A stretch of DNA of 59,525 nt from Rhodothermia bacterium (GTDB taxonomy: Bacteria; Bacteroidota; Rhodothermia; Rhodothermales; UBA2364), in contig JAFLBZ010000028.1 in the NCBI GenBank assembly GCA_017303715.1, positions 1-59,525 on the forward strand. Direction: 5' to 3'. The notes beneath the pieces were generated by a model. It did no database searches, was not told the origin of the DNA, and was given only the letters and a program-made list of their open reading frames with translations. Both the position numbers and the translations under genes were made by a program. Positions 29,393 to 56,317 of this stretch are shown here, in pieces; position 1 is the first letter of the stretch; each line of letters begins with the position of its first letter.

Positions 29393-30043
29393 CTAACCAC
29401 CAATGGTCATCATTGCCCCGTCTTTCCCAATACGGCCAATGTAACGACCAATAATTTGTACGTCTTGGAACTCAAAGCGCTGCTTATCTACAACAATGTC
29501 CTCAAGTTCGTGATTTGCGGGCGCTAATCGTAGGCCTTGTGCCTCTCGGTACACTCGTTTGAGAGTGGTTTCGCCATCTATCATCACAGCCCCAATGGTT
29601 CCGTTCGATAATTCGGTTTCTTGTGAAAGTAGGACATAGTCCCCATCCAAGATACCTGCTTCGATCATAGAATTGCCTTTGACCCGGAGTGCAAACATCC
29701 GCTCTAACTTTGGAAAGAGGTCTTCGAGAGTTAAATCGCCGAGGTCTTCCCCTACAGCTTCTTGTAAAGCTCCGGCGGTAATAACCCCAGAAACCGGAAT
29801 CCCACGCGGTATAAGCGGCATTTCCACTTCTTGGTCTGGAAAATGGTAGCCATTTCCGTCTCGTACCAAGTACCCCTTCTTGACCAATGCTTGAAGGTTT
29901 TGGGTAACACTGTTGGGGGATCGGAATCCAAATTCATCCACAAGATCCCCATACGACGGCCAAGAAGAACTGGAACGAACGTAGCTTTTTATATAATGCA
30001 GTACTTCCTGTTGTTTGGGTGTCAGTTGTTTTCTGTTGATCAT
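29393..30043 (-). CDS. lexA: LexA repressor, paralogue 1
   Basis: 216 aa. An N-terminal winged helix-turn-helix (LTPKQQEVLHYIKSYV, then GFRSPNSVTQNLQALVKKGYL) is followed by an S24 self-cleaving domain. The Ala90-Gly91 cleavage site is in VITAGALQEAV, the nucleophile Ser125 in KGNSMIEAGI and the general base Lys162 in GETTLKRVY. LexA represses DNA-damage genes and is cut when RecA filaments form. It starts 20 bp after the other lexA gene, so they form one transcription unit. The recognition helix region (RSPNSVTQNLQAL) is identical between the two, which suggests that they share operators and may form mixed dimers (inference). Confidence 0.92.
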   Translation of the reverse strand: MINRKQLTPKQQEVLHYIKSYVRSSSSWPSYGDLVDEFGFRSPNSVTQNLQALVKKGYLVRDGNGYHFPDQEVEMPLIPRGIPVSGVITAGALQEAVGEDLGDLTLEDLFPKLERMFALRVKGNSMIEAGILDGDYVLLSQETELSNGTIGAVMIDGETTLKRVYREAQGLRLAPANHELEDIVVDKQRFEFQDVQIIGRYIGRIGKDGAMMTIGG

Positions 30044-30063
30044 CGTAAAAAAGGGTTTATCGT

Positions 30064-30705
30064 TTATGCGGCAGCAGCCATCACGGTTTTATTGGCATGG
30101 TTTACGCGCCCCACGTACCTCCCCAAGACCCGAACTTCTTCAAAAAGGGCGGGATGGATTTTTACGTTGGGGAACTCGTCGTTTGCTGGAACCAAGTGGA
30201 GGCCCTGTTCATCGGTATAAATGCGTTTTAAAGTGGTTTCGCCATTGTATAAAACCGCTCCAATCCCCCCATTTGGGATGTCTTCGTCTATGAGCAAGAC
30301 CAAATCCCCATCTTGAATTCCCTCTTGGATCATAGAGTGCCCCTTAACCCGAAGTGCAAACATGCGGTTGTACTTACTCCGATGCACCACATCTATGGTT
30401 ATCGTTCCCAAGTTTTCTTCCACAGCCTCTTGTAAACAACCTGCGGTAATGATGCCACGAATTCGGATTTTACGGCGCTGGCGTTCTTCTTCAGGTGTAG
30501 TTAATTGGTATCCGTTATTGTCTTTCCTGAGGTATCCTTTTTTTTGAAGGGCTTGGAGGTTTTGGGTAACGCTGTTAGGGGAGCGAAAATCAAAACGGTC
30601 TGCAATATCATTATAGGTCGGCCACAAGCCAGTCTCACGGACGTAATCCCGCAAAAATTGCAGAAAAGCCATTTGTTTGGTGGTGAGGGGGTTGCGATTG
30701 ATCAT
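30064..30705 (-). CDS. lexA: LexA repressor, paralogue 2
   Basis: 213 aa from the ATG at 30705 (MINRNPLTTKQMAFLQFL); a seven-codon extension is also possible. Catalytic features are complete: cleavage site Ala88-Gly89 in IITAGCLQEAV, Ser124 in KGHSMIQEGI and Lys160 in GETTLKRIY. It is the promoter-proximal gene of a tandem pair. The two share the MINR start and the RSPNSVTQNLQAL recognition region, so they arose by duplication. It lies downstream of recO on the same strand but has its own strong promoter. Confidence 0.92.
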   Translation of the reverse strand: MINRNPLTTKQMAFLQFLRDYVRETGLWPTYNDIADRFDFRSPNSVTQNLQALQKKGYLRKDNNGYQLTTPEEERQRRKIRIRGIITAGCLQEAVEENLGTITIDVVHRSKYNRMFALRVKGHSMIQEGIQDGDLVLLIDEDIPNGGIGAVLYNGETTLKRIYTDEQGLHLVPANDEFPNVKIHPALFEEVRVLGRYVGRVNHANKTVMAAAA

Positions 30706-30745
30706 GGCGGTTTTGTGACAATGCATTTACTTGTGTCTCACATAT

Positions 30746-53372: not shown

Positions 53373-53864
53373 TTATGGGTTTGTACCCACTTGCGGAATA
53401 AAAATGTCATCGGCATATTGGTAACCTTCAACCAAACCAAGTTGCTTTGCGGCTCCAATCAATCTTTGCGGATCGGTTATTTGGTCATATTCGCCATTTA
53501 ACCGATTTCGTTCTAAGTGCAGGCGGATGTTTTCTTTTCTCAACTGCTGTACATGACTCAGAATACGTTGTGTGTCATAAACATGTCGGACATATAGTGT
53601 ACCAATCAGGCCGAAAAGCAACATGAACAAGAAAAGAGACAAACTGCGGAAGTTGCCTGCTTTTTTGGTTTCTGCCTCGATCACCTCATCCGGAATGGCT
53701 TTGCTCCCACGGTTGGTGAGGTCGCCCCATGTAGGCAACGGCCCCGCTGCAATTTTGGGGCCAATGACAATGCCATCCGGTCCAATACCCCAACTCCGCT
53801 CTTCATCGGCCAAAGCACCCATGAATTTGCTTTTGTTAGTCTTTTTTTTGAACCGTTTGGTCAT
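53373..53864 (-). CDS. ftsL: FtsL-like divisome protein
   Basis: 163 aa with a long cytoplasmic part (1-72), one membrane helix (about 73-92, LSLFLFMLLFGLIGTLYV) and a periplasmic coiled coil (ILSHVQQLRKENIRLHLERN). A short tail of about 20 residues follows. The topology, size and position between rsmH and ftsI identify FtsL, although sequence similarity is low, as is usual for this family. The cytoplasmic region is longer than in most FtsL. It overlaps rsmH by 4 bp. Confidence 0.8.
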   Translation of the reverse strand: MTKRFKKKTNKSKFMGALADEERSWGIGPDGIVIGPKIAAGPLPTWGDLTNRGSKAIPDEVIEAETKKAGNFRSLSLFLFMLLFGLIGTLYVRHVYDTQRILSHVQQLRKENIRLHLERNRLNGEYDQITDPQRLIGAAKQLGLVEGYQYADDIFIPQVGTNP

Positions 53865-54841
53865 GGTGTTGGTGATTCTGTTCGTGCCACGATACGCAAC
53901 TTTGCACTTCGGGCACGCGGGTTGGATTGAACTTCGCTATCGGTTGCGACAATGACTTTCGGTAAAACCGGTTGCCAAGGCGTTATCAGGTTTCCAAAGA
54001 AATCTTTATGTGCTACTCCCTCAAAGTTTCCAAATTTCATAAATCGTTTCACTGGGCGGTCTTCCAGCGAGTGGTATGTAATGACCGCAAGCCTGCCGGT
54101 AGGTTTAAGTAGCGAAGGCGTTGCGGATAGCGCCGCCTCTAATACTTCTAATTCTCCGTTTACAGCAATTCGGAAAGCTTGGAAAACCCGTGCCAAGGTC
54201 TTGTGCTGTTCCGGGCCTTTAGAAACTTCCCGTATGCAGTTGGCAAACGCTTCGGTGGTTTCAAAAGGACGATGTTTTAGGATGTTACGCACGATCGCTA
54301 CCGCTCTTTTTTCTTCTCCGTAGTTCCAAATAATCCGTCTTAGAGCTTGCTCGTCAAGATGGTTAATCCATTCAGAAGCTGGAGAACCGATATTTGGATC
54401 CATGCGCATATCCAATGGACCACTTCCTTGAAAACTAAAGCCCCGCGACCGATCATCCAGTTGGTGCGATGAAACCCCAAGGTCTAATAAAATGCCCGTT
54501 ACTGTTTCGATACCTCGTTCTTGTAGTAATGCTTCGGTATTGCTAAAGTTGCCAAATAAGGCAAAAAAACGTGCATCATGGCCTAATCTTCCTTGGGCTT
54601 CTCTTAGCGCATCTGCATCTTGGTCTATCCCGATCACCCGCGCTTGTGGGCCTAAAAGATCCAATAAAGCTGCACTATGACCTCCACCGCCCAGCGTACC
54701 GTCAATATATACACCATTTAGATCTGTAATCAGGTTCGTACAGACTTCTTTACAAAGAACAGGGGCATGATACGCGGTTGCATATGGTTGTGGTGCGCCG
54801 ACGTCCGTGCCTATGGTGTTCACCTTCCGGTTGCGCTTCAT
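53861..54841 (-). CDS. rsmH: 16S rRNA m4C1402 methyltransferase
   Basis: 326 aa. The SAM-binding motif YIDGTLGGGGHSAALL, ILLDLGVSSHQLDDRSRGFS (shown in part) and LDMRMDP are RsmH signatures, with the late YHSLEDRPVK. It methylates C1402 in 16S rRNA. Overlaps mraZ (ATGA) and ftsL by 4 bp, giving a tightly coupled head of the dcw cluster. Confidence 0.97.
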   Translation of the reverse strand: MKRNRKVNTIGTDVGAPQPYATAYHAPVLCKEVCTNLITDLNGVYIDGTLGGGGHSAALLDLLGPQARVIGIDQDADALREAQGRLGHDARFFALFGNFSNTEALLQERGIETVTGILLDLGVSSHQLDDRSRGFSFQGSGPLDMRMDPNIGSPASEWINHLDEQALRRIIWNYGEEKRAVAIVRNILKHRPFETTEAFANCIREVSKGPEQHKTLARVFQAFRIAVNGELEVLEAALSATPSLLKPTGRLAVITYHSLEDRPVKRFMKFGNFEGVAHKDFFGNLITPWQPVLPKVIVATDSEVQSNPRARSAKLRIVARTESPTP

Positions 54842-55296
54842 GAAGATCCTCTTTTACCCATCACCGTCTGAATGCGCATACCATATTGTGTATCTTCTTC
54901 TGTCAATTCGGCAGATAAAATTTCCGGATTCCAAATCTCAATGCGATCTAAAGCACCGAGGATGGTCACTTTGTCGGTGATTCCTGCAAACTCAATCAGC
55001 CGTTTAGAGATACTCACGCGCCCTTGTGCATCTAAGGTTTCTTCATCTGCCCAGCGGTACATGGAACGGAGCATGGCTCTTGTTTCTGTCTCGTATTGAT
55101 TCAGGTTTTCAAACTCTTCGGCCTCTTTTCTATCCCAAACGTCTAAGGGGTACAAGTAGATACATTGTTCAATACCACGTGTGATGACAAATGTATCATT
55201 GGCGGCTGGGCTTAGGACACGGCGCATTTTCGCCGGAAGAGCTACGCGCCCCTTGGCATCTACTGAATAGTCTGCTTGTCCTTTAAAACCTGCCAT
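54838..55296 (-). CDS. mraZ: Transcription regulator MraZ
   Basis: 152 aa from the ATG at 55296 (MAGFKGQADYSVDAKGRVALPAK). The frame continues to 55401, but that part lies in the operator. Two AbrB-like swapped-hairpin domains carry the paired signature DAKGRVALPAKMR and DAQGRVSISKRL. MraZ forms a ring-shaped multimer that represses the dcw cluster in E. coli by binding direct repeats of TGGGN just upstream of its own gene, and such repeats are present here. Confidence 0.95.
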   Translation of the reverse strand: MAGFKGQADYSVDAKGRVALPAKMRRVLSPAANDTFVITRGIEQCIYLYPLDVWDRKEAEEFENLNQYETETRAMLRSMYRWADEETLDAQGRVSISKRLIEFAGITDKVTILGALDRIEIWNPEILSAELTEEDTQYGMRIQTVMGKRGSS

Positions 55297-55330
55297 ATGA
55301 AGCCTTTTGGGAATTTGTTTTGGCTTGTCT

Positions 55331-55365
55331 CCCCATTTTTTGGGAATATCCCCCACATTTCCCCA
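55331..55365 (-). promoter_or_regulatory. MraZ operator with 10-bp phased repeats
   Basis: On the minus strand TGGGG occurs at 55361-55365, 55351-55355 and 55331-55335 (the first two as TGTGGGG). The missing phase position, 55341-55345, holds the same motif on the other strand (TGGGA on the plus strand). Starts are exactly 10, 10 and 10 bp apart, as expected for one helical face, and the block ends 35 bp before the mraZ start. This fits the known MraZ box (TGGGN with 5-bp spacers). Confidence 0.8.
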
Positions 55366-55429
55366 CAAGTGCAAACTATTAACTTTCAAAAGGAAATGCA
55401 CGACATATTTTCAACATGACACAGGCGCT

Positions 55430-55534
55430 TATCCACATATGTGCTTCTTTTACATATTGTTCACATAATACTTTAGAATAAAGGTGATATTATAATCACC
55501 ATTTTAAGGTTGAAATAGGTATTTAATTCACCTA
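55430..55534. promoter_or_regulatory. Divergent control region of mraZ and the LexA-like gene
   Basis: Within the divergent promoter region are a palindromic CACATATGTG (55431-55440) and two further inverted repeats, GGTGAT-ATTATA-ATCACC (55483-55500) and TAGGT ... ACCTA (55516-55534). The last two share a GGT/ACC core with centres about 34 bp apart. They are candidate operators of the LexA-like protein or of MraZ; which binds which cannot be read here. Confidence 0.45.
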
Positions 55535-55589
55535 AAAATTTTCAATAAAAAGGGTTTAGGCTTTATTTTTCGATAAAAGATCAAATTGT

Positions 55590-56228
55590 ATGGGCGATAA
55601 ACGATTGACGGAACGGCAACTTCAAGTGCTTGGTTTTGTTCGAGATTATATGCGGGAATACCAGAAGCCCCCTACTTTGAAGGAATTGGCGGGCTTAATG
55701 GGCATACAATCCACGAACGCGGTACACAAGGTTTTAGAAACGTTGGTGGAGAAGGGGTATATAGAGAAGGATGCGCGTGCTTCTCGCGGAATCCGGCTGA
55801 TAGAGACACCAATGGAAGCAACTCCGGCTGAAGTTCCGATGCTCCCGATCATCTCTCGACCGCTGAGGGATCGGGCAGAATGGGCCGCACTTCGATATCG
55901 AACCATGGGGGTAGATGCCAATTTGTTGCGCAATGCACGAGAACGCGATTGTATTGTGGTTCCTGTGGGTGACGACGGTATGGCACGCGAAGGGATTCGG
56001 GCCGGAGATTGGGTGGTAGTGGAAACGGGCCCTTTGACAAGTTTCGGAAATGGGGAACTTGTTTTGGCAGTAGTTCGTGAGCGCTCAATTGTACGACAAA
56101 TATTTGCAACCCGTTGGCAAGTGCAGTTGCGTCCATCGGAAAAACGCTATACCGAAGAGGTGTTCAATACGGCAGCAGCAGATGCTTACGTGGTTGGTCG
56201 GGTGGTCTGCCTGATTCGTCGCTACTAA
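55590..56228 (+). CDS. LexA-like repressor without self-cleavage residues
   Basis: 212 aa. The N-terminal winged helix is clearly LexA-like (LTERQLQVLGFVRDYM, STNAVHKVLETLVEKGYIEK). The S24-type C-terminal fold is retained (EGIRAGDWVVVE, FGNGELVLAVV) but the active parts are changed. The Ala-Gly cleavage position aligns with ISR at 88-90, the nucleophile Ser is Gly130 (VGDDGMAREGI compared with KGNSMIEAGI), and the catalytic Lys aligns with Val168. It should not cleave itself, so it would not be inactivated by RecA. It is divergent from mraZ, 293 bp away. A role in controlling the division operon or itself is inference. Confidence 0.85.
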   Translation: MGDKRLTERQLQVLGFVRDYMREYQKPPTLKELAGLMGIQSTNAVHKVLETLVEKGYIEKDARASRGIRLIETPMEATPAEVPMLPIISRPLRDRAEWAALRYRTMGVDANLLRNARERDCIVVPVGDDGMAREGIRAGDWVVVETGPLTSFGNGELVLAVVRERSIVRQIFATRWQVQLRPSEKRYTEEVFNTAAADAYVVGRVVCLIRRY

Positions 56229-56232
56229 GTTT

Positions 56233-56317
56233 GCGCTGTGATGCGATGATGCGCTGTGATGCGATGATGCGCTGTGATGCGATGATGCGCTGTGATGCGA
56301 TGATGCGCTGTGATGCG
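56233..56317 (+). repeat. 18-bp tandem repeat, 4.7 copies
   Basis: GCGCTGTGATGCGATGAT is repeated without change from 56233 to 56304 (four copies), and a fifth is truncated at 56317. It starts just after the stop codon of the LexA-like gene. The perfect identity suggests recent slippage, a VNTR. In one frame it would encode the hexapeptide MMRCDA, but the surrounding frame has no start or family support. Confidence 0.9.

Follow-up and report, generated by a model that had tools for sequence, protein, structure and literature searches.

The lexA-like gene and its protein

We analysed a window of 59,525 nucleotides (the whole stretch of DNA under study) from a Rhodothermia bacterium of the order Rhodothermales. 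It contains a lexA-like gene divergent from mraZ, the gene that heads the division and cell-wall (dcw) cluster in most bacteria. The features of the locus are as follows.

53861–54841, minus strand: second dcw gene, which from family knowledge we take to be rsmH (mraW) (ORF and conserved order beside mraZ in relatives)
54838–55296, minus strand: mraZ, from its conserved ATG start (MAGFKGQ), the start of its orthologues (Pfam MraZ, 1.9e-22)
55330–55366, minus strand: TGGGG repeats 5' of mraZ, presumably the MraZ box by likeness to the known TGGGN repeats of MraZ; kept in 51/51 loci with the lexA-like gene and 34/37 without
55483–55500, no strand: candidate operator 1, GGTGATATTATAATCACC, a palindrome GTGA-N8-TCAC, conserved in the genus
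55516–55533, no strand: candidate operator 2, TAGGTATTTAATTCACCT, with a degenerate left half, 32 bp from operator 1; register taken from the 32-bp spacing in relatives and the genus alignment
55590–56228, plus strand: lexA-like gene for a predicted non-cleavable LexA paralogue of 212 residues (ORF, Pfam, alignment)
55599–55790, plus strand: winged-helix DNA-binding domain, residues 4–67 (Pfam PF01726, LexA_DNA_bind, 5.7e-18, over cut-off)
55839–56225, plus strand: degenerate S24 (dimerisation) domain, residues 84–212 (Pfam PF00717, Peptidase_S24, 1.5e-9, over cut-off)
55968–55982, plus strand: GDDGM motif, residues 127–131, in place of GxSM, with Gly130 aligned at the position of the Ser nucleophile
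56091–56096, plus strand: Val168-Arg169 aligned in place of Lys156-Arg157, the Arg alone being retained

With mraZ starting at the conserved ATG at 55296, the two genes are separated by 293 bp (55297–55589), exactly as originally predicted; a GTG-started mraZ ORF extends to 55401. The −35 element of mraZ (CTTGAC on the mraZ strand) was found in 27 loci, in most of them at 33 bp from the MraZ box, and operator 1 lies a further ~95 bp upstream.

The original prediction of a LexA winged helix and S24 fold was confirmed by the Pfam matches, by sequence comparison, by Foldseek and by an AlphaFold2 model built from 25 orthologues (pLDDT 85.9). The N-terminal domain of this model matched the LexA DNA-binding domain 1lea (Z 11.9, rmsd 1.9 over 72 residues), and its C-terminal domain matched E. 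coli LexA 1jhc (Z 14.8, rmsd 2.8 over 122 residues). It had also been claimed that the Ala-Gly site, the Ser nucleophile and the Lys base were all replaced. Aligning the protein with LexA of E. coli and with both remaining LexAs encoded in the window bore this out: Ser119 of E. coli corresponded to Gly130, Lys156 to Val168, and the Ala84-Gly85 region to SRPLRDRAEW, which has no Ala-Gly. The GDDGM motif was invariant in an aligned set of 25 sequences. The placement of Gly130 and Val168 at the catalytic positions rests on the alignment, and the fold match is consistent with it. Among the features of LexA membership, the winged helix and S24 fold are present and the Ser-Lys dyad and Ala-Gly bond are absent; against the NCBIfam lexA equivalog (TIGR00498) the protein scored 96.8 bits, under the cut-off of 110.95. 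A substitute Ser/Lys dyad elsewhere in the protein was considered and rejected, since the invariant residues of the family's aligned C-terminal domains include neither Ser nor Lys and no such dyad is therefore visible. These data support the view that the protein would be incapable of self-cleavage by the known mechanism.

Orthologues in both other genomes of the genus were 65–67% identical, dN/dS between the lexA-like genes of two congeners was ~0.12, which indicates purifying selection, and the same substitutions recurred across the order. Judged from these comparisons, the gene is therefore neither a chance ORF nor a decayed copy. Directly 3' of it, at 56232–56317, lies a perfect 18-bp tandem repeat of 4.8 copies.

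Both further LexA proteins in the window were intact, as had been stated. LexA1 has Ala90/Ser125/Lys162. The numbering of LexA2 depends on the ATG chosen, being Ala95/Ser131/Lys167 from the upstream ATG and Ala88/Ser124/Lys160, the numbering used originally, from the one seven codons later. Their genes are in tandem (29393–30726) and the pair is ~53% identical; both other genomes of the genus also have such a pair (L009, L011), and a single canonical lexA copy is usual in the remaining genomes read from the order. The window's genome further encodes a short stand-alone S24 protein (L004 1501–1824, G000:C29:16163–16486) without the catalytic Ser (VAGIEM) and Lys (IVR).

Distribution and ancestry of the family

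A scan of contigs detected one orthologue (Bacteroidetes bacterium UBA2364) and two distant canonical LexAs. Within the order, the lexA-like gene was found in 53 of 114 genomes, one of which (G187) has an internal stop in it; in one more, G148, a remnant with a broken frame is left. Of the 53 genomes, 52 have the gene and mraZ in divergent arrangement, and rsmH comes next. In about half of the order, mraZ and its box occur without a lexA-like gene, so this gene is not essential to dcw control. On its other side, downstream neighbours varied across relatives, and a conserved downstream operon partner was sought and rejected.

The Ser-Lys dyad was missing in all members examined. The Ser position is occupied by Gly in nearly all of them; a few divergent copies in family f14 retain the Ser, never the Lys. 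In a tree of 99 sequences one branch separated the dead from the canonical proteins (support 99/95). By tree and substitution pattern, the lexA-like proteins are a monophyletic family under purifying selection.

Beyond the order, we searched 394 genomes of the phylum (Bacteroidota/Chlorobi) with a profile and detected dead copies divergent from mraZ in four groups (f41, f55, f35 and f37), besides canonical LexAs. Groups f41 and f55 carry the FMO bacteriochlorophyll protein and are therefore green sulfur bacteria. The survey of the mraZ-adjacent position called for by the original prediction thus found it kept in the order, in Chlorobi and in two other families, and the lack of conservation named there as a refutation was not seen. 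Dead copies in f32 and f58 were located away from mraZ and lacked the operator pair. The motif in copies outside the order was DD[GATS]M or close to it. The paralogue is ancient and no recent recruit, with a direction of evolution that we infer; its pairing with mraZ probably predates the split of these lineages, or else spread between them. Canonical LexA coexists with the lexA-like protein in most gene-bearing genomes. In f11, there is usually no S24 protein besides the lexA-like one, and in Chlorobi g144 it is almost the sole remaining S24 protein.

Paired palindromes in the region shared with mraZ

Candidate operators had been predicted in the gap between the two genes, and conserved palindromes were indeed found there. 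The dyad GTGA-N8-TCAC occurred in 31 of 51 shared regions, compared with 0.07 expected from dinucleotide shuffles. With up to two mismatches, GTGAAA-N4-TTTCAC was present at 42 of the 51 gene-bearing loci and in none of 37 mraZ upstream regions from genomes without the gene (one of the 37 ends at 235 bp). This co-occurrence gave a Fisher p of 2e-16, calculated with the 36 complete gene-less regions and ignoring relatedness. Contrasts within genera agreed with it (G187 vs G188, and G147 vs the broken G148), and the broken copy at L071 had no palindromes. The nine gene-bearing loci without a good consensus palindrome included the three of the window's genus, in which operator 2 is degenerate; both other congeners retain the 32-bp pair.

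There are usually two palindromes per locus, at spacings of 22, 31–33, 41–43 or 54 bp, which are near 2, 3, 4 and 5 helical turns. The phasing had a Rayleigh p of ~1e-6 with about one value per genus, a rough figure as genera are not independent. At equivalent positions, Chlorobi have CTGAAC-N4/5-GTTCAG pairs 33–34 bp apart and f37 has CTGAAA-N4-TTTCAG pairs 41 bp apart. An operator pair was also looked for in the f35 loci and none was found. The canonical lexA genes of f35 (L217, L218) are closely preceded by AGTAGAC-N4-GTCTACT or the related GTAGAAATACGTCTAC; this palindrome differs from the direct-repeat box found in the window's order. In many loci of the order (e.g. L016, L027, L052), an ACATAT motif lies ~21 or 29–33 bp 3' of operator 2, positions that differ by one helical turn from lineage to lineage.

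Exact matches to the palindrome across 20 whole genomes were almost confined to the mraZ/lexA-like locus. With up to one mismatch, four genomes (G170, G171, G168, G184) had just the two sites at this locus. As to sites at SOS genes such as recA, the palindrome with up to one mismatch, taken as the presumed site of the protein, was confined to its own locus in these four genomes, which speaks against such sites. A larger regulon was considered and rejected: sites outside the locus did not exceed a reversed-pattern control in most genomes searched. In the window's genome, GGTGA-N8-TCACC had 7 matches compared with 5 in the control.

The canonical LexA promoters of the order carry the direct repeat ACAcATgTTccACACAgtAt, and a search of canonical lexA promoters for palindromes revealed no common dyad. 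This box resembles the experimentally supported motif of Balneolaeota LexA, TTACACATATTTTWTACATA, which is also a direct repeat (PMC7739468). With a direct-repeat box on one side and palindromes on the other, the dead paralogue and LexA therefore appear to have separate sites. In the window, ACATATTGTTnACAT at 55450–55469 is conserved in the genus and resembles the canonical box, and the SOS LexA might also bind the shared region at this site. Canonical boxes as a conserved feature of the gap were rejected; 6 of 51 loci reached 12 bits (shuffles, 0.8%), a minor addition at most.

Possible roles of the protein and its sites

DNA binding, cooperativity, repression and an effect on mraZ are what we infer from sequence comparison. 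The reading that we favour, and think reasonably probable, is that a non-cleavable LexA-fold dimer acts on the two palindromes, repressing its own gene and tuning mraZ/dcw transcription. Such a repressor would be a dimer, held together by the S24 domain that it has kept and contacting DNA with its winged helix, and would not be removable by RecA-stimulated self-cleavage. Two palindromes whole helical turns apart would place two dimers on one face of the DNA, probably cooperatively. From these operators the protein would repress its own promoter, and from the same sites it could modulate mraZ and with it the division/cell-wall operon, the sequence being compatible with repression or activation. 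Because the protein would stay uncleaved, its activity would have to be set by how much of it is present, by modification or a ligand, or through a different protease.

Autoregulation is the most direct reading, because the paired palindromes lie just 5' of the lexA-like gene, with ~95 bp between them and the −35 element of mraZ. In many relatives, only a few bases separate the end of the last palindrome from a TATnTT-like element 5' of the lexA-like gene, and operator 2 abuts the −10 region of that gene. The operators are thus nearer the lexA-like promoter than that of mraZ and lie off the core promoter of mraZ, which has a MraZ box of its own; at such a distance, a direct block of mraZ is not obvious. 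The original suggestion of a repressor at the division-gene promoter therefore holds in that the putative operators are in the shared region, but not in that they sit closest to the other gene. One could go further and propose that the protein represses its own gene and nothing else, mraZ adjacency being an inherited linkage without a division function, and the disappearance of the sites together with the gene (0/37 loci, none at L071) would fit. We regard this as rather unlikely, as several observations tie the sites to mraZ. The distance from operator 1 to the MraZ box had a MAD of 5.5 bp, compared with 21.5 bp for the distance separating operator 2 from the start of the lexA-like gene, although untranslated leaders may simply vary more. 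At L051 the sites keep their distance to mraZ with the gene start ~515 bp away; the operator–mraZ distance is kept in G187 and one Chlorobi genome, where the gene is farther off. In G185, a single metagenome-type draft assembly, the lexA-like gene sits on a different contig, whose flanking sequence, as far as read, has neither mraZ nor palindromes, whereas mraZ retains both 5' palindromes, 32 bp apart; the nearest relatives of the two proteins coincide and the G+C of the contigs is similar, evidence against a mixed bin. Adjacency to mraZ is moreover kept across several lineages of the phylum, whereas the other side of the gene varies. Putative control of mraZ/dcw from the candidate operators thus has the support of distance conservation and one relocation case.

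Two other explanations are much less probable. The protein could still be a LexA of the DNA-damage response, removed by ClpXP turnover or by a RecA-induced change without cleavage; its standing as almost the only S24 protein left in f11 and Chlorobi g144 means that a damage role could have passed to it. This is improbable given that many genomes also have a canonical LexA with a separate box and that the palindrome is absent elsewhere in complete genomes, so that no SOS genes would be controlled. It is, if anything, slightly less probable that the palindromes are the sites of another transcription factor, the lexA-like protein binding at other places or not at all. Nine gene-bearing loci without a good site would suit that idea, but it is opposed by the strict co-occurrence of sites and gene, also within genera, by the analogous pairs in Chlorobi and f37, and by the form of the sites, short palindromes 4–5 bp apart that suit LexA-type dimers.

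A broader proposal, which we put forward tentatively and consider doubtful, is that this ancient LexA paralogue, present in the window's order, in green sulfur bacteria and in further lineages of the phylum, is the dedicated regulator of the division/cell-wall operon, in which the former protease pocket with its conserved Asp-Asp-Gly-Met motif has become a sensor of a ligand or partner linked to division or the cell wall.

The nearest known parallel is LexA of Synechocystis sp. PCC 6803, which lacks the Ala-Gly bond and catalytic Ser, acts outside the SOS response and may be tuned by modification (PMC3091678, PMC7567884). The lexA-like family shares with it the LexA fold, these losses and a predicted non-SOS role. 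However, the Synechocystis protein has many target genes and is itself the LexA of the cyanobacterium, whereas the family described here is a separate paralogous clade in several lineages of another phylum, has lost the Lys as well and is associated with a near-single-locus pair of sites at mraZ. Canonical LexA (E. coli; Balneolaeota, PMC7739468) has the same winged-helix and S24 architecture and fold and operators beside its own gene, but is cleavable, controls SOS genes and in this clade uses a direct-repeat box, in contrast to the inverted repeats and missing dyad of the dead family. The non-canonical Bacteroidetes LexA (PMC8565304) is likewise an S24-family repressor of the same phylum; it differs in its CI-type HTH, intact catalytic residues and SOS regulon, and mraZ does not occur in the main text of that report. 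A search of the open-access literature, subscription papers being outside its scope, found no description of lexA–mraZ pairing in these groups. The LexA fold and loss of cleavage are of known kinds, and the conserved family, its pairing with mraZ and the near-unique paired operators appear to be new.

To our knowledge, few regulators besides MraZ act at the mraZ/dcw promoter. The lexA-like protein looks like an unrecognised dedicated regulator of the mraZ promoter region, one that would share this site of action with MraZ but has an unrelated fold, MraZ having its TGGGN direct repeats on the mraZ-proximal side. If true, a disarmed DNA-damage repressor would have become a conserved second dcw regulator, that is, a stress switch rewired to the cell cycle. 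The mraZ/lexA-like locus offers a one-locus test system, and the gene-bearing green sulfur bacteria include culturable lineages.

Loci without the dead LexA showed a feature of their own. Strong canonical LexA-like boxes lie 5' of mraZ at L073, L079 and L100–L103 (f6, f8, f15), and such boxes reached at least 15 bits in 6 of 37 gene-less loci, compared with 0.3% of shuffles.
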